Assembly: GCA_961205875.1 (NCBI GenBank)
Contig: OY540816.1
Coordinates: 23,508,701-23,572,700 of the forward strand
DNA length: 64,000 nt
Direction of reading: 5' to 3'
Source: Sialis fuliginosa
Lineage: Eukaryota > Arthropoda > Insecta > Megaloptera > Sialidae
Numbering within the stretch: position 1 is the first letter of the stretch; every line of letters begins with the position of its first letter. This document shows, piece by piece, positions 2,516-61,614 of the stretch. Under the pieces are notes generated by a model, which was given only the letters and a program-made list of their open reading frames with translations, was not told the origin of the DNA and did not search any database. The translations under genes and the position numbers were made by a program.

Positions 2516-3028
2516 TTAAGAAATTTAAATTGAAAATTTAACAAATAAGTTAAATATAATAATAATAATAATAATAATAAATTTTATTCAGTTTAACTTT
2601 TACAAACAAGTATTGAATAAGTCAAAAAAAAAAAAAAGAAGAAAATACAAAGGATGATACTTGATATATGAATAACATAAGGAAAATTCGAATGACATAT
2701 AAGAAACAACAAGAAAGTAAATATTAATTTTAGTAATGAAAATAATCAATAATGTTTTATTTTGTTTTTTTAATTATTTTATTTTTATGTTTAATTTGAA
2801 CTGTATTTCAGATATTCACTGACCGTGAAAAAACAGCGATCCAACAAGAATTTCTTAAGCTTATTATTGAATTTTTCTATAGGTAGGTTTTTGATATTTG
2901 TCGGTAAATTGTTATAAATTTGTATGGTTGAATTTAGTGGACCTTTATATATAGTTGTTAGGTTTGTGAGTATTAATGTGTAGTTGTTTTTATTTCGTGT
3001 GCTATATGTATGTTGTAGAGTGTTGTTA
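2516..3028 (-). mobile_element. 3' end of a non-LTR retrotransposon (LINE)
   Basis: On the minus strand an open frame runs from about 3,028 to a TAA stop at 2,793-2,791. It reads ...HTYSTRNKNNYTL, then IYNNLPTNIKNL, then FNNKLKKFLL and a terminal SEYLKYSSN. The TRxK - YNxLPxxIK - FKxxLKxxLL pattern is the C-terminal tail seen after the reverse transcriptase in many arthropod LINEs (known family pattern, recalled, not searched). The rest, down to 2,516, would be 3' UTR and includes a (TAA)n tract at 2,558-2,582. The upstream part is missing, so it is a dead 5'-truncated copy. No start codon lies in the retained frame. Confidence 0.7.
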
Positions 3029-5160
3029 AAAACAAGTTAAAACTAAAAAAACAAATTAAAACTCATACGCTAACAAAGAAGTAAATTGAATAGTTAATAT
3101 CTCAGCTTTGCGCGATCGAAGAGACTCCAGTTTTTTTTTAAATGTAGCTTACACTATTATCTTTAAGAGCATCACGCACTTAAAGACCTTCGCGTGCTCC
3201 ATCCCTTTTTAAAAACAAGTTAAAACTAAAAAAACAAATTAAAACTCATACGCTAACAAAGAAGTAAATTGAATAGTTAATATCTCAGCTTTGCGCGATC
3301 GAAGAGACTCCAGTTTTTTTTTTAAATGTAGCTTACACTATTATCTTTAAGAGCATCACGCACTTAAAGACCTTCGCGTGCGCCTTCCCTTTTTAAAAAC
3401 AAGTTAAAACTAAAAAAACAAATTAAAACTCATACGCTAACAAAGAAGTAAATTGAATAGTTAATATCTCAGCTTTGCGCGATCGAAGAGACTCCAGTTT
3501 TTTTTTAAAATGTAGCTTACACTATTATCTTTAAGAGCATCACGCACTTAAAGACCTTCGCGTGCGCCTTCCCTTTTTAAAAACAAGTTAAAACTAAAAA
3601 AACAAATTAAAACTCATACGCTAACAAAGAAGTAAATTGAATAGTTAATATCTCAGCTTTGCGCGATCGAAGAGACTCCAGTTTTTTTTTAAAATGTAGC
3701 TTACACTATTATCTTTAAGAGCATCACGCACTTAAAGACCTTCGCGTGCGCCTTCCCTTTTTAAAAACAAGTTAAAACTAAAAAAAAACAAATTAAAACT
3801 CATACGCTAACAAAGAAGTAAATTGAATAGTTAATATCTCAGCTTTGCGCGATCGAAGAGACTCCAGTTTTTTTTTAAAATGTAGCTTACACTATTATCT
3901 TTAAGAGCATCACGCACTTAAAGACCTTCGCGTGCGCCTTCCCTTTTTAAAAACAAGTTAAAACTAAAAAAACAAATTAAAACTCATACGCTAACAAAGA
4001 AGTAAATTGAATAGTTAATATCTCAGCTTTGCGCGATCGAAGAGACTCCAGTTTTTTTTTAAAATGTAGCTTACACTATTATCTTTAAGAGCATCACGCA
4101 CTTAAAGACCTTCGCGTGCGCCTTCCCTTTTTAAAAACAAGTTAAAACTAAAAAAACAAATTAAAACTCATACGCTAACAAAGAAGTAAATTGAATAGTT
4201 AATATCTCAGCTTTGCGCGATCGAAGAGACTCCAGTTTTTTTTTAAAATGTAGCTTACACTATTATCTTTAAGAGCATCACGCACTTAAAGACCTTCGCG
4301 TGCGCCTTCCCTTTTTAAAAACAAGTTAAAACTAAAAAAAAACAAATTAAAACTCATACGCTAACAAAGAAGTAAATTGAATAGTTAATATCTCAGCTTT
4401 GCGCGATCGAAGAGACTCCAGTTTTTTTTTTAAATGTAGCTTACACTATTATCTTTAAGAGCATCACGCACTTAAAGACCTTCGCGTGCGCCTTCCCTTT
4501 TTAAAAACAAGTTAAAACTAAAAAAACAAATTAAAACTCATACGCTAACAAAGAAGTAAATTGAATAGTTAATATCTCAGCTTTGCGCGATCGAAGAGAC
4601 TCCAGTTTTTTTTTAAAATGTAGCTTACACTATTATCTTTAAGAGCATCACGCACTTAAAGACCTTCGCGTGCGCCTTCCCTTTTTAAAAACAAGTTAAA
4701 ACTAAAAAAACAAATTAAAACTCATACGCTAACAAAGAAGTAAATTGAATAGTTAATATCTCAGCTTTGCGCGATCGAAGAGACTCCAGTTTTTTTTTAA
4801 AATGTAGCTTACACTATTATCTTTAAGAGCATCACGCACTTAAAGACCTTCGCGTGCGCCTTCCCTTTTTAAAAACAAGTTAAAACTAAAAAAAACAAAT
4901 TAAAACTCATACGCTAACAAAGAAGTAAATTGAATAGTTAATATCTCAGCTTTGCGCGATCGAAGAGACTCCAGTTTTTTTTTAAAATGTAGCTTACACT
5001 ATTATCTTTAAGAGCATCACGCACTTAAAGACCTTCGCGTGCTCCTTCCCTTTTTAAAAACAAGTTAAAACTAAAAAAACAAATTAAAACTCATACGCTA
5101 ACAAAGAAGTAAATTGAATAGTTAATATCTCAGCTTGGAGCGATCGAGGAGACTCCAGTT
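3027..5160. repeat. 184-bp satellite array, about 11-12 copies
   Basis: The marker GCGCGATCGAAGAGACTCCAG recurs near 3,111, 3,294, 3,478, 3,662, 3,848, 4,032, 4,216, 4,402, 4,586, 4,770 and 4,955, with a variant near 5,140. Spacing is 183-186 bp and differences are mostly length changes in A/T runs, so the array is very homogeneous. Each unit also carries CTCATACGCTAACAAAG and a CACGCACTTAAAGACC block. A diverged single antisense copy lies at 58,150-58,235, so the unit also exists as a dispersed repeat. Confidence 0.95.
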
Positions 5161-5400
5161 TTTACTTTCTTGTACCATGTATATGAAATATACCTAGTAT
5201 AAGTAAGTATAGTGAAGCCGATTTTTTTCGAACTCCGGATTTTGACGGAATTATCTATTTTGACCTTCCCTGAATCCATTCTGATTATTTTCGCCATGAT
5301 GTCTGTGTGTCCGTCCGTCTGTCTGTCTGTCTGTCTGTAAGCGCTGTAACTCAAATACGACATATCGTAGAAGGGTGATATTTTATATTTAAGATTCATT
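5161..5400. repeat. dispersed repeat with GTCT tract
   Basis: It directly follows the satellite. It includes GACCTTCCCTGAATCCATTC, TCGCCATGATGTCTGTGTG and a GTCT tract (5,312-5,338), then a CTGTAACTC motif. Related pieces lie near 53,040-53,270 and 60,060-60,150. A long minus-strand frame overlaps it but is the translation of the microsatellite, not a gene. Confidence 0.5.
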
Positions 5401-8311: not shown

Positions 8312-10431
8312 TAAGACGTATTTTCAATGTGGCCCGTCTTAATGAACCCTATATAAGTAAAACATTGCAGAGTTAGTTCAACACTGGCCGTCAGAAAGGA
8401 GCCAACAATATAGTTAGTGTAACATTGTATTCGTCGAGTGATTTTTTTCAATAACTCCCGACATTTACGATTCAATAAACATATTTTACAGTCGTGAACA
8501 ATGAACGTTGCACGTGACCCACGGGTGACCCCATCCCGTATCCATAGCCACCTATAATCGCCCGTACACAATATAATATAATATACTACAATACTACATA
8601 ATATCTACTTCATAAATCATACAAATCAATTTGTATAATATTTAAAAATAGTAGATATACAATACAGTGTGCCCCAGAAGAGATGTGAAAAACTAATTGT
8701 TAGCACCTTTTGTGGGCTGTAAAAAAGTATGCTCGCAAAGGATTGTTGGGGACTTTTGGTACCTTATTTATAAAGACAAAATGAAGGTGTATACAAAAAT
8801 TCAGCTTATTGCGAAATTTTTCCCAGTGAAAACCTAACGATTTAAAAACATAACATATTTTTTTATTATTAAATATATTCATCCAATACACGTAGATATG
8901 GAAATTTCGTTTTATTGTAAACTGAAATTAAAAGAAAACATTTTATATTGGAGATAAAACAAAGAGATAGCTGAATTTCAGGTTATACAATAAAAATACA
9001 CAAATACGTATAGAAAATTCATAAAAAGAATAAAAAAAGGAAAACCGATTGGACGGAATCATAAAAAAGATATATACATACGAGTCTGTGACTAAACTCT
9101 CGTGATATTTTAGAATTCTTCTGACAGAAGGTGTTACAAATGTTTCTACATTTATACGAATATATTATAAGATACTAGCACCAATCTTGGCCGCTTTAAA
9201 GGAAAGGTATACTACTTTTGAGATTGATATAATTATTTTTGTAATTCACATGAATTCATGTTACTAATAAAATAAGTAACTCTTTATTAAATCAATCGAT
9301 CAGTCCTGACTTTATAATCAACTTTATAATATGAAAAAAATAATTTCTATCAGTGCCAGCTTATTGTTAATACAATTTGCAATATCAGCTCTGTTATTGT
9401 AATTATTTATTGTTATTATTATTGTTTTTTCATCGATGAGTGAAGTATTTTGCTAATTCGATAAACGGATTTGCTAAAGCTTGCGTGAGGGGGTGGGGGG
9501 GGGAGTGTTGTAAATTGATATCGCTGAAATAATTCATGCGATAAATTAAATCCGTGTAATACGAAGACAAGATGTTTTAACAAAAACCAGTGCTTCTGAA
9601 AATTTTAACTAGATATAATATAATATTTAATTACATTTTTAAAATTACCTCTCATTATTATTATTATTATTAATCAATATTTTTCCGAGAACGGGCGGAT
9701 AGTTTTACATATTTCAATCAAATTTTAGCTGAATCGGTCCAATAGTTTTTGAGTTATACTACGGACAGAAAAACTAAAAAATGTCGTTTTTATTCAGTAG
9801 TAAAAATAATTTCAAACAAAAAAAATCACCTCATTATAAAATAACATAAATTATTTTGTACAGAAAAAAACATTTATTAAAACCTCTGATTAATATTAAT
9901 TGCAATAAATGTCACTTAGATATTTATATATGAGTATAATCAAGAAAAATCTCTACCTCTTTTGATTAAAGACGGAAGTATATTAAAAAATTAGAGCACT
10001 CTGACATAAAACATTAATGTGCATCAATCAAGAACACATTTCTGAGGTATTTTAAATATTTTGTCTCCATATTAACTATTAATTCACTTCTTTAATAATA
10101 TATTATATTTAATTTATATTAATCGGTAAAAAATTACTATAAATTATTATTACTAAGATAATCAGAATTCCCCCCTCCCTCAAAGAAAATCGTGCCGATT
10201 TCGTTAGAGGAGAGGGGGACTTCAGGATATTTAAAAATTTAAATGAATCATATTTATTGTTAGTTTAATAATATGCGTTAGAAAATTTTTAAATATCTTA
10301 AATTAAATGTATTATGCTTCATTCCATTAATAATATTAAAGTACGAAATTTAAGTGTAATTAGATTTAAGCTAAATGAAAGTTACTTAATAACACCGGGC
10401 GTAAATGTAAAAATATAACATCTGAAGATGT
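8312..10431. other. AT-rich DNA with fragmentary repeats
   Basis: The block at 8,330-8,560 is less AT-rich and unique in the window. It is open on the minus strand for about 95 codons but has no recognisable protein. 9,170-9,400 matches parts of the ACTGGCACCAGTCTTGG element family (see 39.85 kb). The rest is AT-rich with no gene evidence. Confidence 0.4.
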
Positions 10432-10520
10432 CCACTGCAATGTGTGACGAAACGTTGGCCTATAACGTGACCAAATCGACACGGTTTACACCCAGAAACC
10501 AAGATCATTAATAAATAGGT
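10432..10520 (+). mobile_element. Penelope-like tail with hammerhead-like core, 5' truncated
   Basis: It starts CTGAAGATGTCCACTGCAAT, then has GACGAAACGTTGG, then a TTTACACCCAGAAACCAAGA tail. The same order occurs at 27.2, 50.2, 55.1 and 60.9 kb. It resembles the hammerhead-like cores known in Penelope-like retroelements: CUGANGA, then a hairpin, then GAAAC. Ribozyme function is inference only. Confidence 0.5.
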
Positions 10521-10611
10521 ACCATACAACATAAAACTGTTATTTAAATCTATTTAAAATTAACAAAATTTTCTTTAAAAAAAAAAATCAAAATCTTACA
10601 AAACGGCTTAC

Positions 10612-10896
10612 CTTTTCCCTATTAACTTTAGGTGATTGCAACTCCGGGGACCTCCCATAACAATCATTCTTCTCGTAATTCTCCGGGCACTTCTGCTGTT
10701 GTTGGTTCAGATTCACCTCCCAGTTCTCCTGTATCTCCGGCGAACACTGGGGGGTGTTTTCCCCCGAGCGGGGTTTCCAAAACGACACGGTTATCTTTTC
10801 CCCGAGCCTGCTTTTGGCCAGCATCAATTTCCTTGCGCTTCCCGGGGAGTTCATTATGTATAAGCTCTTTCTTTGAGTTTTTGGACTGTCGTTAAC
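10612..10896 (-). CDS. internal coding exon (exon 2) of a Ser/Pro-rich protein
   Basis: This 285-bp exon (95 codons, phase 0 at both ends) follows a TTAG acceptor at 10,900-10,897 and ends GAAAAG before a GTAAGC donor (10,611). It reads from VNDSPKTQRKSLYIMNSPG, through KITVSFWKPRSGENTP, to a polyglutamine-containing stretch (NLNQQQQK) and ends SPELQSPKVNREK. It is much richer in G+C than the flanking DNA and open throughout. An in-frame TAG lies immediately before the acceptor. SP/TP sites and basic patches suggest a disordered, phosphorylatable protein (inference). A second acceptor at GACAG (10,886) would give a different frame with an early stop. I do not recognise the family. Downstream exons were not found. 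Confidence 0.65.
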
Positions 10897-11586
10897 CTAA
10901 CGTTTGATATATCATTTTTTTATGATTTGATTTTTCTCGATTATTTGTCTATTTTTTTTTTTTAATCTGATGAGGGTAACATTGATTTTGAAACTTTACA
11001 CCCCAGAAGGGGTGATTTAAAATAATTGTGTTTTTTTTTACTGCGTATACGTTGAAAGTACTAAGAAAAAAATACAAAAACGTAAAAAAATTAGATTATT
11101 AAAGAATTTTCTAGTACATAAAAAAATTTACAATTTATAAAAAATGTATCCCTAATTAATCCAATATTAATATTGACTAATTAGGTCAGGCACGTATTAA
11201 GAAAAAAAATTTAATAAAAGAAGTGCATAAAAATGAAGAGGTCCTTGCAAATTGTTGTAACTAAACCAAAAATAATTAGATCAGGCACGTATTACGAAAA
11301 AAACACACATTTCAAAAAAAAAAACACGGGAGAAGACAAAAACTCAAAAAACTATCGAGATTATCAAATCTTAAAAAAAAAAACGTAAGTCGGTTTTAAT
11401 TCTGATCAGACTTAAGCAGTGGCGTAATAAGAAAAAATTTCGGGGTAGATAATACATATGAGTAAAATTTTTTGAAGGTGTTTTGAACTGATATTTTCTC
11501 GAAACATACGTTTTTTTTAAAAGGGGGGGGGGATCGTCCCAAAACCCCCAATTACTACACCACTGAACTTAAGGCTGCCTCCTTAC
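10897..11586 (-). other. intron between the two Ser/Pro-rich exons
   Basis: The 690-bp intron starts GTAAGG and ends CGTTAG on the minus strand. It is AT-rich, lacks a clear polypyrimidine tract, and contains a hAT-like miniature element near its 5' end. Both flanking exons are in phase 0, which supports the pairing. Confidence 0.55.
11417..11565. mobile_element. small hAT-like MITE, CAGTGGCGTA termini
   Basis: The 149-bp element has imperfect terminal inverted repeats, CAGTGGCGTAATAA and CAGTGGTGTAGTAATT. It is flanked by GACTTAAG (11,409-11,416) and AACTTAAG (11,566-11,573), an 8-bp duplication with one mismatch. Eight-base duplications are typical of hAT transposons. It holds a 10-base G run and sits 12 bp inside the intron from the exon 1 donor. 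Confidence 0.75.
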
Positions 11587-11862
11587 TTTCTCCGCATATC
11601 CAGGCGTAGTCACGATAAACGCCTTATTGGTGAAAGCCTGCGGCGCATTGTTACTTCCTACAGGACTCTTATCTATCGCGCAATTATTCCCGTTTGACGA
11701 GGACGAGCTGAAACTCCGGGTCTCGCTGGCTACCGGAGACAGAGGCGACGCGATACCGGAGTCGGCGTCCGACAGCTGGAACGATACCGGACGACGTTTC
11801 ACAGTTCCGGTCTGGGCGCTCGGCGAGTCCCAGTCCGCGCCCGCGGCAGATGGCGACGGCAT
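11587..11862 (-). CDS. first coding exon (exon 1) of a Ser/Pro-rich protein
   Basis: The exon carries 92 codons starting at ATG 11,862-11,860 in the context ACCATGC, with an in-frame TAA two codons upstream. It ends GCGGAGAAA before a GTAAGG donor (11,586). The protein starts MPSPSAAGADWDSPSAQTG, continues KRRPVSFQLSDADSG, then has SPLSPV and a run of five serines encoded by mixed codons (AGC, TCG, TCC, TCG, TCA), and ends TTPGYAEK. RPVSF fits the R-x-V-x-F docking motif for protein phosphatase 1, but such motifs occur by chance. G+C is far above background. The family is not recognised. It joins 10,612-10,896 in frame. Confidence 0.7.
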
Positions 11863-12279
11863 GGTTAGTTAACCGTCGATTAGTTAGTCACAGGTCACTT
11901 GATACTAGCGCACTTTGTTTAAATTTTCTCTTGTTATAATGTATTTGTTGTTTGGATAGGTAGTGTTTTGTTTTTTAACGTTTAATGTGGACATCTAGAT
12001 TCATTTTATTTTTTCTATTTTTATGCTGGATATAATCATTCTAATGGGCCGATTAAAATCATAATTATTTTTGTCAAACCCATATCATAGGATAGATAAC
12101 ACATTACCTAGTGTTGTTACCATATCGCTCCACGAGTCATCAGATTTTAAAATAAACATCAATTGTTTTGAATTATATATAAAATTAATTAATAAAATAA
12201 ATGTTTCATACTGCTTTTAAAAGCATTTCGGTGATAATTGATTGACATAAAAACGTCTATTTGGAACTATTATCTCTCT
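11863..12279 (-). other. upstream region of the Ser/Pro-rich gene
   Basis: On the minus strand a TATAAC motif lies about 75 bp before the ATG, but no clear initiator is seen. There is no good splice acceptor just before the ATG, so the leader is probably continuous here. The remainder is AT-rich without other features. Confidence 0.35.
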
Positions 12280-27206: not shown

Positions 27207-27353
27207 ATTGCAGTGGACATCTTCTTAGAAGAGCCCTGAAGATGTCCACTGCAATGTGTGACGAAACGTTGGCCGATAACACGATCAAACCGACGCGGCT
27301 TACACCCAGAAGCCAAGATCCATATCAAGATCACCGCGGAAGCCTCAAGACTT
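27207..27353 (+). mobile_element. Penelope-like hairpin with hammerhead-like core
   Basis: A short inverted arm (TTGCAGTGGACATCTTC) precedes GCC-CTGAAGA, then the hairpin GTCCAC...GTGTGAC, then GAAACGTTGGC. The GCC and GGC would form helix I, and the GTCCAC/GTG-GAC pairing helix II. The tail is GCGGCTTACACCCAGAAGCC and ACCGCGGAAGCCTCAAGACT. Among the copies this core is the most canonical. Confidence 0.6.
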
Positions 27354-35806: not shown

Positions 35807-36071
35807 TTAGACATAGGATTATCTTATAACTTCCAAAGTAACGTAATTAGAGCAACCAGAATGAGTCAGTTTCATAGGTACATAATTAACTAACGTATTT
35901 TTCAGTATTAACGTGTTTCCAGTTCCGAGTTATCACAATGAGCCAAGGAATCAGCTCTTAAAATATCTGTATCACAAACCGGACAACCCTGTACATAAAG
36001 TTTCTGATGCGCGCTTAGCGAATCTTTTTTTTTGTGATGATTACTTTTATATGGTTTATATAGTATTTTTA

Positions 36072-36250
36072 AATGGATCTTGGATTATGGGTATAAACCG
36101 CGTCGGTTTGGTCGTTCTATCGGGGCCAACGTTTCGTCGCACATTGCAGTGGACATCTTAAAAATAGTGCACTTTAAAAAAAATTGACGCGACTTACACC
36201 CAGAAGCCAAGATCCATAACAAAATCACCACGAAAGCCTCAAGACTTGTA
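36072..36250 (-). mobile_element. Penelope-like inverted copy
   Basis: The left half is antisense (CCGCGTCGGTTTGGTCG, CCAACGTTTCGTCGC, ATTGCAGTGGACATCTT). The right half is the sense tail (GACTTACACCCAGAAGCC, AAAGCCTCAAGACTTG). The two halves together form a hairpin with a 25-bp spacer. Confidence 0.6.
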
Positions 36251-39853: not shown

Positions 39854-40326
39854 AAGATACTGGCACCAGTCTTGGACAGAACCCCAATTGTTTAATTAAA
39901 TTTTGCAATTACTGAAACATAATCTATAGACACTTAACTGTAAAACAGCTTAATTTGATGATAATCGGCCAATAGGTGTCAAAATGGTGGACATTTAAAC
40001 TAATTATTAGTGTAATATATTTATTAATTATTATATTATCATAGCATCTGCAAAACATTGCTTCTAATTTTATGATTCTTTATTTTATATCTTTTTGAGT
40101 CCATCACTGGGTGCCCATTACTGGTTTCACTTTGTCCATTATTAGAGAAAAAAACATAAACAAAATAAAAGGTTATAATTTAAAAAAAAAACTATATTTG
40201 CAGTATTTAGGTAGTAATTAAATTGATTTAATAAATTAGTAACATGAGTTCATGAGAATACAAAAAAGAACCCCATCTATCCCAATACCTTGCTCTTCAA
40301 GCGTCCAAGACTGGTGCCAGTATCTT
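39854..40326. mobile_element. MITE, AAGATACTGGCACCAGTCTTGG termini
   Basis: The ends are perfect inverted repeats of about 20 bp: AAGATACTGGCACCAGTCTT and complement. The same family occurs at 25.4 and 45.1 kb, and as interrupted copies at 29.1-29.7 and 47.2-48.4 kb. Confidence 0.85.
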
Positions 40327-44748: not shown

Positions 44749-44984
44749 TTTTTAGTAAATGAAATCCTAGAACTTACGCACACGTTTGTACGTACCCCTT
44801 CCCCTCCCCCTCCCACCAACACACTAATGCACTACGTCATACATATTCATGTTTCTAGAGCTCCTTTGCAAGCTCCACATCTTTGTAACACCTGTAAATG
44901 AAGTGCATCATCTTTAATTAACTTTGCAGAACCAGAACAAACATTTTAAGATGAATAAAACAGAATTAAGAACTATGCTTTCAT

Positions 44985-45020
44985 TCTTGGCTTTTGGGTG
45001 TAAGCCGTGTCGTTTTCTAA
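44985..45020 (-). mobile_element. fragment of the Penelope-like tail
   Basis: TTGGCTTTTGGGTGTAAGCC followed by GTGTCGTTT is the antisense of the CGGCTTACACCCAGAAGCC tail. Confidence 0.5.
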
Positions 45021-45127: not shown

Positions 45128-45623
45128 GATACTGGCACCAGTTATGGCCGCTATAAGTAATTCTCATGAACTCATGTTACTAATAAAACAAGTAACTCTT
45201 TATTTAATCAATTTAATTACCAAAGTCACCAAATATAGTTTGTTTTTTTAATTATAGCCTTTTTTGTTTATGTTTTTTCTCCAGTAATGGATAAAGTCAA
45301 ACCAGTAATGAGCACGCAGTGATGGACACTTGCTAATGATAAGTACTACGACACAAAAGTTATAAAAGAAAAAATCGTCAAATTTGAAACAATATAAAGC
45401 AGTTGCTATGATAATATAATAATTAATAAATAAATTAGTTTAAATATCCACCATTTTGACACCTATTGGCCTCATGTGATGAAATCACGCTGTAAGACAG
45501 TTAAATGTATATAGATTAATATTCAGAAATGGTAGTAATCAAATATCAACAAATATTTCTAATTCAGTACATTTAATTAAAAAATAGCCATTACTGGGGT
45601 CCTTGCCAAGACTGGTGCACGCA
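45128..45623. mobile_element. copy of the ACTGGCACCAGT element
   Basis: It runs from GATACTGGCACCAGTTATGG to CCAAGACTGGTGCAC. The interior shares CACCATTTTGACACCTATTG with other copies at 40.0, 47.3 and 58.4 kb. Confidence 0.75.
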
Positions 45624-47180
45624 CGAGAACAGAGGCCATTGTGACTGTGTGTATGGAGAGGGGGGGGTGAGGGGGGTAGATTAGAGATTAAGTCCGTTAC
45701 TGTTTCTTTGAGACCTTCATCACGGTTGGTCTGATTACGTAATTGTTAATTTAACGCATTGTGATTTTAATCTACGCGAAATTACTAAACGTTTTGCTGC
45801 CCACTGAAAAAAAAACAACACAACATTGCCATTTTGTTTGTTTGTATAATAATGTTCATAAAGAAAATGCTCTTTTTAAACCAGTGGCGTGCAGATATGT
45901 TTTTTTTAATCGAATTCAAAAAAGGAGGAAGTTTTTAATTCGACAGTATATATTTTTTATGAATGTTCCGGCATAACTCCGACAAATATGCACAGATTTT
46001 GACGTTGAATTTAATTTTATTATTTGTCGGGTGCCCCTTTACCCAAACTACATTAATTTTTAACTAACTTCAAAATTCAATTCGGCTGTATATATTTTTT
46101 ATGAATGTTCGGGTATAACTCCGACAAAGATGAACCGATTTGGATGAATTTTTGTTTGTTTGAAAAACTATACTCCAAAGGTGGTCCCATATAAATTTTA
46201 TCAAAATCTGACAATGGAATTCGAAGATATGCCTCTAAAAAGGGAAAAATAAAAAAAAGACATACCGCATGTTCTCTCTCTCACTTCAAACAACCCCCTT
46301 GATTAAAAACAAAGACAGACAGATCCTAAAACGTTTTAATTACATGCCCCATCCTTTTCTTCGGAAGTAATTTAAAGGGCTTTTTTGCATCCCTTCCTGG
46401 TCGACAAAGATAATCATACGATTGAATATGTAAAACATATTTCCCGTCTTTGTCATCAGGAAGCCGCGGAAGTCGGATGTTTAATAAACACACAAGCTTG
46501 ACTGGATGTTGGCATATGTTTTATTAACCCAGAAGTAGACGGGCTCCTTTAAAAAACGAATGCCTTTTTTATTATTTTTTTACGTTATACGAAAATTACT
46601 GAACTGTTTTTGATGGGACTTTCATTATTAGAAAGCCTAAGACCCTAGAATTGATTTAGGCAAGATATTAACACGCTATCTTATCAAGGAACTGAGCAGT
46701 AACATTACACACGTATCTATGGTTTTTTTAAGAATAGATTGTATTCAAGTCTACCACGGGGTTAATAAAGACGCAAACACAAAGAGTAAGTGCATATGCT
46801 ATAGAGAGAAGCACTACCGTGTTAAGAGTAACTAGTCGCGTTTGTATTCACCATTTTCAAGTGCAACAAAAAATTTTAAGTAAAGAAAAAAATTGATCTG
46901 AGTTTTTGTGTATATTTTTTTAAGATTAGAATTTATTCAAGTCCACTGCTGGGTTAATAAAGATACAAGCGCACGGTGTAAGTGCATATGCTTTATTGTG
47001 CGTCAAAAATGTCGAGGTAACTCAGATAAGTAACTTCCTAAATAGTTTAGAGCTGTACAAAAGGTGCTTTATACTTACATTAAGAGTTTGAATATTGCAG
47101 TTTCTGTTCTAATTTAATGGCACGAAAGGGTTAAATTTGTTAGTCTGTAGTTTAATACAAACATGTAAAATATATTTCTA
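45624..47180. other. AT-rich DNA with two repeat families
   Basis: 46,050-46,255 is antisense to the CCATGGTCAGATTC family. ATTCAAGTCYACYRCKGGGTTAATAAAG-like blocks recur at 46,742 and 46,930, each followed by AAGTGCATATGCT. No gene is supported. Confidence 0.4.
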
Positions 47181-48440
47181 ATGATTACAAAATGATAAGT
47201 ACTATGACACAAAAGAATCGTCAAATTTGAAACAATGTAAAGCAGTTACTATGATAATATAATAATTAATAAATAAATTATACTAATAATTAGTTTAAAT
47301 GTCCACCATTTTGACACCTATTAGCCGATTGTCATCAAATCACACCTGAAATTCAAATTTTTACTTTATTAAATAAATTCTTATATATTTATATAATACT
47401 ACGTCTTATTTTCTTGTATTTTAGTCGATATTTGTATGACGAGTTGAAGTTTACTGCAGAAAATTTCACTAAAAAATTTCGAATTTTTGATTTCGTTAAA
47501 AGTATGTTTATTGTATAGAAAATGACGTGAAAAGTTGTTTGTTTCAAACCGCAGGTCTGTATCTCAAATCGTTCTCGAGATATGGCCTCTCAAAGTTTTA
47601 GTTTTTTCAAATTTTTGGAGAAAAAAGGCCATAACTTTTGAACGTGTGGTCGGAATTGATTTTAGTTGACGGATTTGAAATCAGCGTGTCAAATTCTATA
47701 TAATGACATGTATAATACCTTAAAACTTGAAAAAAAAAATTTCGCGAAAAATCGAAAAAATTCAAAGGGGTATACCTTAAAAAAATGTCGATTTTTGACG
47801 AAATTTTTTTTTTCGGATTTTAAAGTATTATATATGTCATTATATAGATTTTGATATGCTGATTCCAAATCCGTCAACTAAAATCAATTCCGACCACGCG
47901 TTCAAAAGTTATGGCCATTTTTCTCCAAAATTTTGAAAAAACTGAAACTTTGAGAGGCTATATCTCGAGAACGGTTTGAGATACAGACCTGCGGTTTGAA
48001 ACAAACAACTTTTCACGTCATTTTCTATACAATAAACATACTTTTAACGAAATCAAAAATTCTAAATTTTTAAGTGAAATTTCCTGCAGTGAACTTCAAC
48101 TCGTCATACAAATATCGACTAAAATACAAGAAAATAAGACGTAGTACTATATAAATATATAAGAATTTATTTAATAAAGTAAAAGCTTGAATTTCAGGTG
48201 TTTCATAAGTAGTTAGAGGGGGAGGATTGACAAAATATACTTCCCTTATTAAAAATTTCACGCTTCGCCACTGGTATTAAACTATTCTTCCAGAATCTGT
48301 CGCCCCCCAAAACTTTGCCGCCCTGGGCAGTAGCCCATGTTGCCCATACCTAAATACGCCGTTTGTTAAATGTATATAGATTAATATTCAGAAATGATAG
48401 TAATAAAAAATCAACACGTGTTTCTAAATCAGTACATTTA
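47181..48440. mobile_element. element interrupted by a foldback and a second fragment
   Basis: 47,181-47,340 and 48,365-48,440 are parts of one ACTGGCACCAGT-type element (CACCATTTTGACACCTATTA; AATGTATATAGATTAATATT). Between them lie the foldback (47,341-48,274), whose right terminus ACGCTTCGCCACTG is intact, and a CGCCCTGGGCAGTAGCCC fragment of the GTGGCGTACC type. The left terminus of the foldback is lost. Confidence 0.7.
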
Positions 48441-50119: not shown

Positions 50120-50131
50120 ATAAAACGAATT

Positions 50132-50332
50132 GGATCTTCGCCGCGTCGGTTTGGTCGTGTTATCGGCCAACGTTTCGTCACACATTGCAGTGGACATCTC
50201 TTCTTAAAGTGCCTGAAGATGTCCACTGCAATGTGTGGGGAAACGTTGGCCGATAACACGACCAAACCGACGCGGCTTACACCCAGAAGCCAAGATCCAT
50301 ATCAAGACCACCGCGGAAGCCTCAAGACTTGT
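50132..50332. mobile_element. Penelope-like hairpin insertion with 12-bp target duplication
   Basis: The 201-bp insertion is flanked by ATAAAACGAATT at 50,120-50,131 and 50,333-50,344. Its first half is the antisense of its second half over about 60 bp, from CCGCGTCGGTTTGGTCG to CTTC, with a 10-bp spacer. The sense half holds CTGAAGA...GGGGAAACGTTGGC and then the ACACCCAGAAGCC tail. Inverted pseudo-LTR forms with irregular duplications are reported for Penelope-like elements, which this resembles. Confidence 0.8.
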
Positions 50333-50344
50333 ATAAAACGAATT

Positions 50345-54385: not shown

Positions 54386-55090
54386 AAGTCAGGGCTGACT
54401 AGCTTGCGGCCCGCAAGCACATATAAACAAATTATGTTTTTATAATGTTTATTTCATGTATCGGTGATTCAGAATGACTGAGGTTGGTTTTAATTTCCCG
54501 TTGTTTTCTTTATGTGTTTTACTCATTTCAATGGATATATCTTTTTTTATAATATTTAAATTTTATATTTTTGTGAATAAATAATTAGTATTTTAAATAC
54601 TTGAAACCATACAGATATATTTTGTTGTTGGTTAAATATTTTTTTTAGTTTACTATGGTTGAACACTTGTTTGTTTTTTCCCCTTGGATCAAATGAGACA
54701 AATTACAACCCTTTATCTGTAACTGGGAGAAAAATTGAGAGTTTTTCTTTTTCGCTATTTATTGATAATACAAAATCATAAATACCTCGGTTCCTATGCG
54801 AGGTAGTGGGTAATTTTTTCCCTAAGTTAGGGTTTGTAACTCGGAAACTAAAAGTATCTTACCGTTTAGGAAATCCCCATGCATTTCACTCTTATCTTGG
54901 ACACATAAGAAAATGTAAGGGCTTTGACATACATACATACATACAGACAGACAGACAGACGGACGAACAAAGCGAAACTATTTCTACGGAACCCTAAAAA
55001 TGAATGGAACATAAACTACACAAAATAACAATCTCTACAACTTTTTTTTTCTCCTATGAACCATTACAAATATAATTTTTGAGGTTTTTA
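54386..55090. other. AT-rich DNA with family fragments
   Basis: CAGGGCTGACTAGCTTGCGG at 54,392 is a GGCTGGCC-type end. A GACA tract (54,943-54,960) is followed by ATTTCTACGGAACCCTAAAA, matched in reverse at 59,430 (TAGGGTTCCGTAG). Confidence 0.4.
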
Positions 55091-55093
55091 AAA

Positions 55094-55190
55094 GAGCCCT
55101 GAATATGTCCACTGTAACGTGTGACGAAACGTTGGCCGATAATACGATCAGATTGGCACGGCTTACACCAAGAAGCCAAGATTATTCCTA
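55094..55190 (+). mobile_element. Penelope-like tail, mutated core
   Basis: GAGCCCTGAATATGTCCACT and GACGAAACGTTGGCC are present, but the conserved CTGAAGA is CTGAATA. The tail CGGCTTACACCAAGAAGCC follows. Confidence 0.6.
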
Positions 55191-58133: not shown

Positions 58134-58560
58134 TTAAAGTTAATGATGTAAGCTATATTTAAAAAAAAAGTTGGAGTCTGTAGGATCGCGCCAAGCTGAG
58201 ATATTAACTATTCAACTTATTTGTTAATTTATCAATTTTAATTAATTGACATTTTCGGTGATTTTCGAACATTTTTTAGGTGGAGAGAGACTTTTTAAAA
58301 ATAATAAAATAAAGAATCGTAAAATTGTTAACAATGTAAAGCAGTTGCTATGATAATATAATAATTAATAAATAGATTACACTAATAATTAGTTTAAATG
58401 TCCACCATTTTGACACCCATTGGCCAATTGTCTATAAATTAAGCTATTATAGAGTTAAGTATCCATAGATTATGATTCAGTATTTGCAGTATACATATGT
58501 AATCAATTATCAACAAATATTTCTAATTTAGTATATTTAATTAAACAACCGAATTTTTCA
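58134..58560. other. satellite relic and element fragment
   Basis: 58,150-58,235 is an antisense single unit of the 184-bp satellite. 58,322-58,540 matches the ACTGGCACCAGT element interior. Confidence 0.55.
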
Positions 58561-58735
58561 TTAAAATTAATAAATAAATTAATTACTGGAAAAACAGAGA
58601 AACTGTGGTTTCTAGTCACTTAAACTAAAATTATACACCTTAACCACAATAAAACAATGTCACTCGACACGTGTTTCGACTGATGAGGACTTCTTGTGAA
58701 GTCGAAACACGTGTTTTATTGTGGTTATAAATAAA
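58561..58735 (+). mobile_element. element with a 15-bp hairpin and hammerhead-like core
   Basis: ACACGTGTTTCGACT (58,667-58,681) and AGTCGAAACACGTGT (58,700-58,714) are perfect inverted repeats around an 18-base loop. The same segment reads CTGATGA, G, GACTTC-TTGT-GAAGTC, GAAAC, a hammerhead-like order with one extra base after CTGATGA. The flank GAAACTGTGGTTTCTAGTCA also occurs at 48.49 kb without the hairpin. Confidence 0.55.
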
Positions 58736-59350: not shown

Positions 59351-60480
59351 AATTACTTCTTCGCAATATCCGAAGGACAGGAGGAAGCTATGTGATCATT
59401 TCTAAACAAATGTAACCTCCGATTTTTAGGGTTCCGTAGAAAACTAGGATATATAGGAAATATAGTTTCGCTCTGTCCGATTAAGATGAAATTTGGTATA
59501 CGGACGTAGATTGATACCCCAAAAACAAAAATGAGTTTTTTGAAAAAAAAATTTTGGACCCCTTCCCATCGACTAGTTCGTGTTTCGACTTCATAAGAAT
59601 TCCTCATCAGGAAGTTAATACGAAATTGAACTAATATACCCTATACCTTTTAGTTTTGTCAGTTAAGTATTAGTACAAATAGGGGTAAAAAATATCAACC
59701 ACAAAATCAATTTAAAAACTACACACACGCGGTTGTATATTAAACATCTATTTATATTAATAACCGCTTTAGCAAGAAGAAGAAGAAGCAAAACACATCA
59801 CGCAAATAATCAACAAGGAAAAATAAAAATGACGCCATTAATGCCTTTATAATTATACAGAGTGTAATATCGAATCTGTAATTTCCTATAAGCTTGTAAT
59901 TATTTTATTTCTCATAACAGTTAAATGTACATGAAGTTTAAACGTTTGGACTTAAAAAAAAACAAACATTAATGTATACAGGGACGTAGATAAATATAAT
60001 AATAATAAACTTATGAAAAATTTAATAAACCCTAAAAAAAAATTTCTATTGTTAATCCGATTTTTGTAAAATTCTCTGAATTCATTCTGACTATTTTTAC
60101 CATGATATCTGTGTGTGTGGCGATCTGTTTCTACAATGCATAGAAGGGTTAAGAGTATTATACCCCCCCCCTCTCCCAGTTTTATTAATTAATTAATTTC
60201 TCTCGTAATCTTTCGTTGTATAAAAAACATTCAACTAACCAACAAGAAAATAATTTAATCGCTTTGGGTTTTGAAGGTTTTAAACGACACAAAATTTAAT
60301 ATTGATGCACAGCAAAAATGTCATCTTCAAAATAGGATATGACCTAAACAAGCGGCCTTGGGAATAGTCAAAATTACCATACATACAAACATACTGAATT
60401 AATAATTATATTTCAAAGAAATCAAGACTGAAAGGTGTGCATAAGCGATTAAAATTATACAATACCTTATATTAACGACA
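59351..60480. other. AT-rich DNA with family fragments
   Basis: 59,358-59,440 starts CTTCTTCGCAATATCCGAAG, a diverged CGAGGAAGC-family end. TAGGGTTCCGTAG and GATGAAATTTGGTATACGG follow. A C run lies near 60,163. Nothing gene-like is seen. Confidence 0.4.
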
Positions 60481-60675: not shown

Positions 60676-60888
60676 ACACTCACTGTTAGAAATATGACAA
60701 CGATGCCATTTTTAACCAACTGATTTTTAAAAAAATTCATCTTTACCAAGTTTAAAAAAAATTGAAAATAATGTACTTAATAATAAAAAGTATATTTAAT
60801 GAAATTAATTGATAAAATGAAAAAAATACAGCTATGATAAATCGATTCAAGCTGTCAGAACTCTATGAGTATCTCTGCTGATGTTAAC

Positions 60889-61025
60889 CAACGTTTCGTA
60901 AACTTTTCAAAAGCCCTGAAGATACTATTTGCAATGTGCGACAAAAAGTCCGATATAACGAAGTAATTGACGCGGCTTACACCCAGAAGCCAAGAGTCAT
61001 TATAAGATCACCACGAAAGCCTTAA
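60889..61025 (+). mobile_element. Penelope-like copy, core decayed
   Basis: CCAACGTTTCGTAA (antisense) is followed by AAGCCCTGAAGATACTAT, a decayed GACAAAAAG where GACGAAACG is expected, and then the ACGCGGCTTACACCCAGAAG tail. CGAATGTCCTCTGTAATTTG and GACGTAACGTTGG at 61,228-61,275 are a further relic. Confidence 0.6.
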
Positions 61026-61614
61026 AAAATGGTTAAAAATTTAACTTGTCTCAGTTTTAAAGAATTGTCAATAATAATAATGATTTTAGTTTTGTTATTA
61101 AATTAAAAATAAAATTAAAATATTTATTATTTTAATAAAAATTTAAAAAATCGAATTCAGATGAGACAAGTTCAAACTTTCGACAAAATGAAACCGAGAC
61201 TTATGTACCTATAGTCTTTTCTCATCTCCATTACGTCACGAATGTCCTCTGTAATTTGTGACGTAACGTTGGTTAAATTACCATTCCACAGTTTCAACTT
61301 ATTAAATTAAATTAACAGTAAATATTTTTTTCTTTCAGTTTAATTAATTCCTATCAAAACAAAAAACTTTAGGTGTTTAAAGATGACAATAATTTATACC
61401 CCATATTAATCAAATTACGACCAAATTTATCATAAAATCATAAAAAGTAACATAAAATTCATTTAAACGTTAAATTTGCAACAATCAGAATAATTCAAAT
61501 TAGTAAATAAAGTAACTGAAAATATTTTTCAACGATAAGATTCATGCAACAATTAAAAATATATCGAAAATCTTCAAAAGTCAATAAAAAAAAATTGAAT
61601 ACACATGAGTTCTA

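Follow-up and report, generated by a model that had tools for sequence, protein, structure and literature searches.

The genome of Sialis fuliginosa contains a previously undescribed repeat family of a known kind, namely leader footprints of Penelope-like elements (PLEs) with a minimal hammerhead-like core. The family probably consists of short PLE insertions carrying an RNA leader, which is composed of a hammerhead-like core, an AC-rich stem-loop and a region where reverse transcription starts. Its origin from PLEs is hardly in doubt, and the core is very likely a variant of the PLE hammerhead, while cutting by an intact tandem RNA, as predicted from the sequence, appears evenly balanced between yes and no. 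This genome bears on the role of the hammerhead in PLEs, with several PLE families that have long open frames and covarying cores sharing one extra base, and with many short insertions. The ends of these insertions show where reverse transcription started and stopped, so that sequence and RNA mapping can test the start sites, the 5' ends and whether the ribozyme is needed.

The hammerhead-like core at 27.2 kb

The window, a stretch of 64,000 nt on contig OY540816.1, was examined with unit positions counted from an ATG at 27242. The sequence-only reading had proposed a hammerhead-like core at 27.2 kb, and all parts named there (GCC/GGC, CTGAAGA, an extra T, GTCCAC with GTG/GAC and GAAACGTT) were located in the sequence (Table 1). 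The canonical core letters C3-U4-G5-A6-N7-G8-A9, G12-A13-A14, A15.1-U16.1 and H17 were present at 27236-27270. The possible helix III would comprise two pairs without a loop (ACGU), as described for PLE variants. Two features of a canonical type I hammerhead were absent at 27.2 kb: helix II (G10.1-C11.1) does not directly follow A9, as one base intervenes, and helix III is not closed by a loop. The search with Rfam hammerhead models gave no match at this locus.

The minimum-energy fold of the isolated RNA 27229-27281 contained helix I and helix II (-10.6 kcal/mol), with an ordinary fold energy (z -1.16; 21 of 200 shuffles were equally good). When the inverted arm was included, the 27.2 kb RNA folded into a hairpin of -34 kcal/mol in which CTGAAGA was buried. 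The frame that opens with the ATG spans 37 codons. Mismatches at codon positions 1/2/3 amounted to 7/10/5 in the five frame-intact window arms and to 50/58/42 in 39 genome copies; since neither set showed a bias, coding is not demonstrated for this frame, and about 17% of random 37-codon frames stay open by arithmetic, (61/64)^37. Pfam returned nothing above its cut-off for ten frames of the window.

The exact motif pair of CTGAAGA and GAAACGTT occurred in none of 100 shuffles, and its three matches in the window represent one family. A descriptor demanding both helices, the two-pair helix III and H17 had its sole match in the window at 27236 and a single match in 3 of 100 simulated windows. 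A looser core pattern matched 118 times in viral contigs, only one of these matches also having at least three pairs in helix I and at least four in helix II. Following the descriptor simulations and this pattern scan, chance resemblance was set aside. Core scans of other DNA yielded phage-like chance matches or none in viral contigs and none in prokaryote contigs, and a text search of a paper collection with the core letters found no relevant paper.

Table 1. Features of the repeat family within the window (unit numbering from the ATG at 27242)
Feature	Position	Strand	Evidence or remark
Helix I strands GCC / GGC	27233-27235 / 27271-27273	+	sequence
CTGAAGA	27236-27242	+	sequence
Single extra T between CTGAAGA and helix II	27243	+	sequence
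Helix II GTCCAC / GTG(T)GAC, bulge at 27259	27244-27249 / 27256-27258 and 27260-27262	+	sequence
GAAACGTT motif	27263-27270	+	sequence
GAA; possible helix III ACGU; H17	27263-27265; 27266-27269; 27270	+	sequence
Hammerhead-like core overall	27233-27273	+	sequence, fold of 27229-27281, descriptor; cut after 27270 predicted
AC-rich stem-loop GGCTT-ACACCCAG-AAGCC	27297-27314	+	predicted fold of -6.2 kcal/mol with 5 pairs
27.2 kb insertion, main arm (unit -17 to +112)	27225-27353	+	comparison with other copies by BLAST and nhmmer
27.2 kb insertion, short left arm (inverted)	27207-27224	-	inverted match to unit; makes the hairpin
Optional tail between short end (~+81) and long end (+112)	27323-27353	+	3' ends of arms, 39 genome copies
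Two arms head to head; the minus arm, to ~50203, ends near +81 and the plus arm at +112/+114	50132-50332	.	
Left copy of 12-bp target duplication ATAAAACGAATT	50120-50131	.	
Right copy of 12-bp target duplication ATAAAACGAATT	50333-50344	.	
Two arms head to head; the minus arm (36065-36162) has the short end and the plus arm (~36181 to 36247) the long end	36065-36247	.	
Insertion with very short inverted left arm (60888-60899) and diverged plus arm	60888-61025		
Single arm, short 3' end	55085-55183	+	
Single arm from CTGAAGA, short 3' end	10422-10508	+	
Unit fragment (stem-loop part)	44983-45016	-	E 8e-6
Unit fragment (core part, diverged)	61242-61272	+	E 9e-5

Copies in the window and in the genome

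At least six copies, six of them named, had been said to share the order of the motifs. Three of the six (10.4, 27.2 and 50.2 kb) keep both motifs exactly, but the others keep one each: CTGAAGA in the 60.9 kb copy, and GAAACGTT in the copies at 55.1 kb (CTGAATA) and 36.1 kb (TTTAAGA, minus strand). The GCC/GGC pair was intact in two of seven aligned window arms, those at 27.2 and 55.1 kb. A lack of covariation in helices I and II among copies had been named beforehand as a refuting outcome; a change on both sides of a helix was found in none of the seven window arms, but these are near-identical dead copies and the test has low power.

The hairpin that had given the family its name does not belong to the ribozyme. 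At 27.2 kb (27207-27254) the repeat is accompanied by another arm of itself in inverted orientation, and the hairpin stems from this head-to-head insertion. Longer arms are seen in the pairs at 50.2 and 36.1 kb, where one arm stops at about +80 and its partner reaches +112. At 50.2 kb both arms belong to a single insertion, which has ATAAAACGAATT on either side. Random places gave duplications of at most 9 bp in 300 draws at the same slack of 4, and 12-16 bp in 6 of 300 draws at a slack of 8. No target duplication longer than 5 bp was detected at the other five window loci tested, 36.1 kb included.

The genome (392 Mb, 20 contigs) was searched with 27207-27353 as query. At least 65 matches were obtained from 40 scored of 352 candidates and, with only these 40 scored, genome copy counts are lower bounds. 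For the copy set, 39 of the 40 main loci were fetched with their flanks, the window's own locus being left out; as they were picked by their match to a query with complete tail, these best 39 copies favour young, full-tailed ones. Among these best 39 copies of the 352 candidates, the unit was about 138 nt long and had sharp ends, reaching from -24 to about +114. The main arm ended at +112 in 32 of the 39, and in 21 of these 32 arms the next two letters were GT. BLAST placed an inverted arm head to head with the unit in 31 of the 39 copies. The inverted arms were truncated at many points, with 3' ends between +79 and +84 in 19 of 35 segments. The unit had two favoured 3' ends, separated by about 31-33 nt.

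Target duplications of 12-15 bp flanked nine of the best 39 copies and duplications of 8-9 bp three more, while 19 had none of 5 bp or more; 780 random draws gave one duplication of 8 bp and none longer. The flanks abutting the unit were shared by no two of the 39 copies. CTGAAGA was kept in 29, GAAACGTT in 32 and both in 24 of these best copies, 15 of which had both motifs and GCC/GGC intact. Divergence was 2-5% along the unit, and the GCC of helix I was its most diverged segment with 8.1% (9/111). None of the 39 extended past the unit into RT or endonuclease. Each of them held one plus-strand unit (BLAST), and no direct tandem repeats were seen in the 560-1000 stretch examined. The copies are most likely dead DNA.

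Penelope-like elements of the same genome

A search of the genome for GIY-YIG (150 of 160 candidates scored) returned two matches. One of them, L169/L170, is a PLE in which two frames hold RVT_1 (42.1 bits) and GIY-YIG (28.5 bits). The RT of L170 had at least 129 matches (129 scored of 483 candidates), many with open frames of 896-934 aa. Pfam found neither an RT nor a GIY-YIG domain in the long PLE frames of L201, L202 and L203, only L170 being Pfam-positive, and the PDB sequence search of the long L201 frame had no RT or GIY-YIG match either. By BLASTP, the L201 frame was 51% identical to the L170 RT (317 bits) and 41% to the L170 endonuclease part (102 bits), to which the L202 frame was 45% identical (112 bits).

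The 30 best PLE loci, 117 kb in all, were searched for CTGANGA followed by a stem of at least three pairs and GAAA. A hammerhead-like core was present on the sense strand in 29 of these 30 best loci and absent from L172. It was located 136-154 nt upstream of the first Met in the 11 loci where the longest frame reaches the ORF start. The composition-matched control contained 856 cores in 230.8 Mb, which corresponds to 0.43 expected per 117 kb. Together with the anatomy of the insertions, these cores support the Penelope link that had been drawn from the 27.2 kb letters. The unit gave no BLAST match at E 0.01 to the 30 PLE loci. As, in addition, none of the 39 copies extends, no full-length PLE partner was identified for the unit, and the link between the family and its own PLE is one of layout, not of a shared full-length element.

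Further observations were made on these PLEs. The matches often lie about 3.56 kb apart, in arrays with long open frames on contigs C3, C7, C10, C11 and others (L201, L205, L206, L208, L210), often as two opposed halves and in several cases near contig ends. Contig C7 starts with CCTAA repeats; by eye, the start of C10 and the end of C3 lie inside PLE-like sequence. The ORF start near the L170 core is situated outside the PLE, within the repeat hosting it. Copies of the repeat into which the L170 PLE inserted were found at 45157-45618, 40019-40322, 47174-47343 and 58304-58491; the one at 45.4 kb is an empty site of this insertion, and the PLE copy seemed by eye to be flanked by ATATAATAATTAA. 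By eye, the PLE leaders of L180, L201, L176, L195, L175 and L178 have TTTTGACCT... in common in the interval that separates the core from the ORF, and also ATGGTCAT where the ORF begins, and hence TGACC could pair with GGTCA across the start codon.

The extra base and covariation of helix II

The base between CTGAAGA and helix II had been noted as not canonical. It does break the canonical placement of helix II, but it recurs throughout: the best stem started after exactly one extra base in 13 of 13 distinct PLE core sequences, which are related and hence not independent. The 856 control cores had no preference (293, 289 and 274 with 0, 1 and 2 extra bases, respectively). Covariation was studied in ten cores, namely those of eight PLE loci, the 27.2 kb family core and the 58.7 kb locus. 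When read with one extra base, the first three pairs of helix II were standard in 30 of 30 cells, a score that is partly built in because the cores were chosen by stem length; without the extra base, standard pairs numbered 2, 8 and 7 of 10. Pair 10.2-11.2 was A-U, G-C or U-A across the ten cores. Two of 20000 shuffles reached 30/30 and, after four close relatives had been collapsed to one, 34 of 20000 reached 21/21. Given its occurrence in 13 of 13 PLE cores, the lack of preference in chance cores and the covariation of helix II, the extra base is a trait in this genome and not a flaw. This covariation between PLE families also supports the hammerhead reading.

Helix I was less uniform. By eye, it was AUUU/AAAU in L201, UUA/UAA in L170 and GCC/GGC in the 27.2 kb family; L180 had a broken helix I, and none could be seen in L176, L173, L195, L175 and L178.

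The extra core base of CChMVd sits after A9. The plus-strand hammerhead of this viroid occurs naturally with such an additional base in its core (PMC3705267); there the base is A, whereas it is U in the 27.2 kb locus of Sialis. In the 27.2 kb family this U belongs to an ATG, and the PLE ORFs of the genome start 136-154 nt further down. It is conceivable, if unlikely, that a base separating A9 from helix II is obligatory in the PLE hammerheads of this genome, which would then make up a variant class, and that the 138-nt units come from internal reverse transcription on an RNA with defined 5' end or from a passenger RNA needing its ribozyme. In the 27.2 kb family the obligatory base would be the U of a start codon (A9-U-G10.1), and translation start and ribozyme folding would for that reason be mutually exclusive there.

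A second hammerhead-like core was observed at 58668-58713. It reads CTGATGA-G-helix-GAAA, is followed by the palindromic ACACGTGT and lies inside a larger inverted repeat. Rfam scored it with Hammerhead_3 at 22.9 bits (E 0.0037 in a 101-nt search), under the cut-off of 48.5, and its RNA folded into a hairpin of -42 kcal/mol. At 59579-59610 on the minus strand, 32 nt are 93.75% identical to 58680-58711 and span the core from C3 to helix III; the flanks of the two places had no BLAST match to each other.

Proposed formation of the units and possible function of the core

Small hammerhead variants of PLEs are reportedly the subject of work by Cervera and De la Pena from 2014 and by Lunse et al. 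from 2017. As described in sections of PMC7761336 and PMC6155905, these variants occur in PLE repeats, have a type I core reduced to the minimum, lack a real helix III and are thought to cut as dimers. The Sialis cores share this minimal design and add a base before helix II.

The insertions have the same anatomy as published Penelope insertions. Passages of PMC3846280 describe pLTRs in inverted head-to-head orientation, one with an optional 31-bp tail, target duplications of 9-10 bp for Penelope and of 8-10 bp in the Adineta vaga families, and palindromes at the junctions. The Adineta vaga families treated there have the head-to-head inverted arms, the optional tail of about 31 bp and the target duplications in common with the Sialis unit, but occur as full elements with pLTRs of 193-218 bp, whereas Sialis has units of about 138 nt only and duplications of 12-15 bp. 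The word 'hammerhead' is absent from the text of PMC3846280 on the Adineta vaga Penelope.

The layout of the RNA resembles that of the lizard PLE, Poseidon of Anolis carolinensis (PAc). PMC11167929 explains the insertion anatomy for PAc: an AC-rich stem-loop downstream of the hammerhead contains two neighbouring internal sites from which reverse transcription sets out, and cutting and extension take place on both DNA strands. The leader hammerhead and the AC-rich stem-loop downstream of it are found likewise in the Sialis unit, and the two internal start sites, which give rise to the optional tail of PAc, match the two 3' ends of the unit. In PAc the ATG comes after C3 and G8 and precedes the cut by 26 nt; in Sialis the ATG starts at A9 and the cut is predicted 29 nt after it. 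PAc has a known ORF, unlike the Sialis unit with no more than 37 open codons.

We infer that either of two positions beyond the stem-loop serves as the start of reverse transcription, which takes place on each of the cut DNA strands and continues as far as a fixed 5' end of the RNA near -24, and that the two cDNAs are joined head to head. A PLE RNA used from its 5'-proximal start site would yield just the unit, from which it would follow that none of the 39 copies is longer than the unit.

The core is predicted to cut after U27270. A helix III of two pairs cannot close within one molecule, as a loop does not fit, and ACGU can pair with itself. The predicted cutting would hence need two copies, in a tandem RNA or a dimer, and two units could share a four-pair helix III via ACGU. 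Cofolding preferred another dimer (-27.9 vs -20.1 kcal/mol for the double hammerhead). The PLE protein may aid the cutting.

The units could well be PLE insertion footprints whose core no longer cuts RNA and is kept for another job, such as binding of the PLE protein or template folding, although we rate this somewhat short of an even chance. The core goes unrecognised by Rfam, no helix I can be seen by eye in families C, D, F, G and H, and cleavage mutants of the lizard PLE still insert in vitro (excerpts of PMC11167929), all of which favour a non-cutting core. Against this, C3-A9 and G12-A14 are kept in many families with a covarying helix II, and the lizard ribozyme cuts when protein is present, according to the same excerpts. 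As that ribozyme requires the protein for cutting and is dispensable for insertion in vitro, a role in transposition is not to be assumed.

A different origin of the units, as a separate non-autonomous family in which PLE proteins move a small passenger RNA with fixed ends, is less likely than not. The sharp ends near -24 and +112/+114, the failure of all 39 best copies to extend, the 352 candidates of the first search and the missing full-length partner in the 30 PLE loci would suit such a passenger; however, an ordinary PLE RNA would give the same product if reverse transcription set out internally from its 5'-proximal site. Moreover, the known passengers, the animal retrozymes, are direct tandem repeats with canonical hammerheads in the portions of PMC7229834 that deal with them, whereas the Sialis copies are single units with a minimal core. 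A palindromic DNA transposon (MITE) with a hairpin that is hammerhead-like by chance could account for the inverted arms and the many copies but is most improbable, as the two arms differ in the unit position at which they end, inverted arms break off at many points and are missing in some copies, duplications vary from 12 to 15 bp and the cores recur in PLE leaders.

Other observations in the window

Two open frames of about 100 aa on the minus strand, at 10591-10896 and 11572-11868, resemble exons of a host gene; Pfam had no match for them. A minisatellite with a period of 184 bp occupies 3026-5163 and comprises 11.6 copies with 98% matches.
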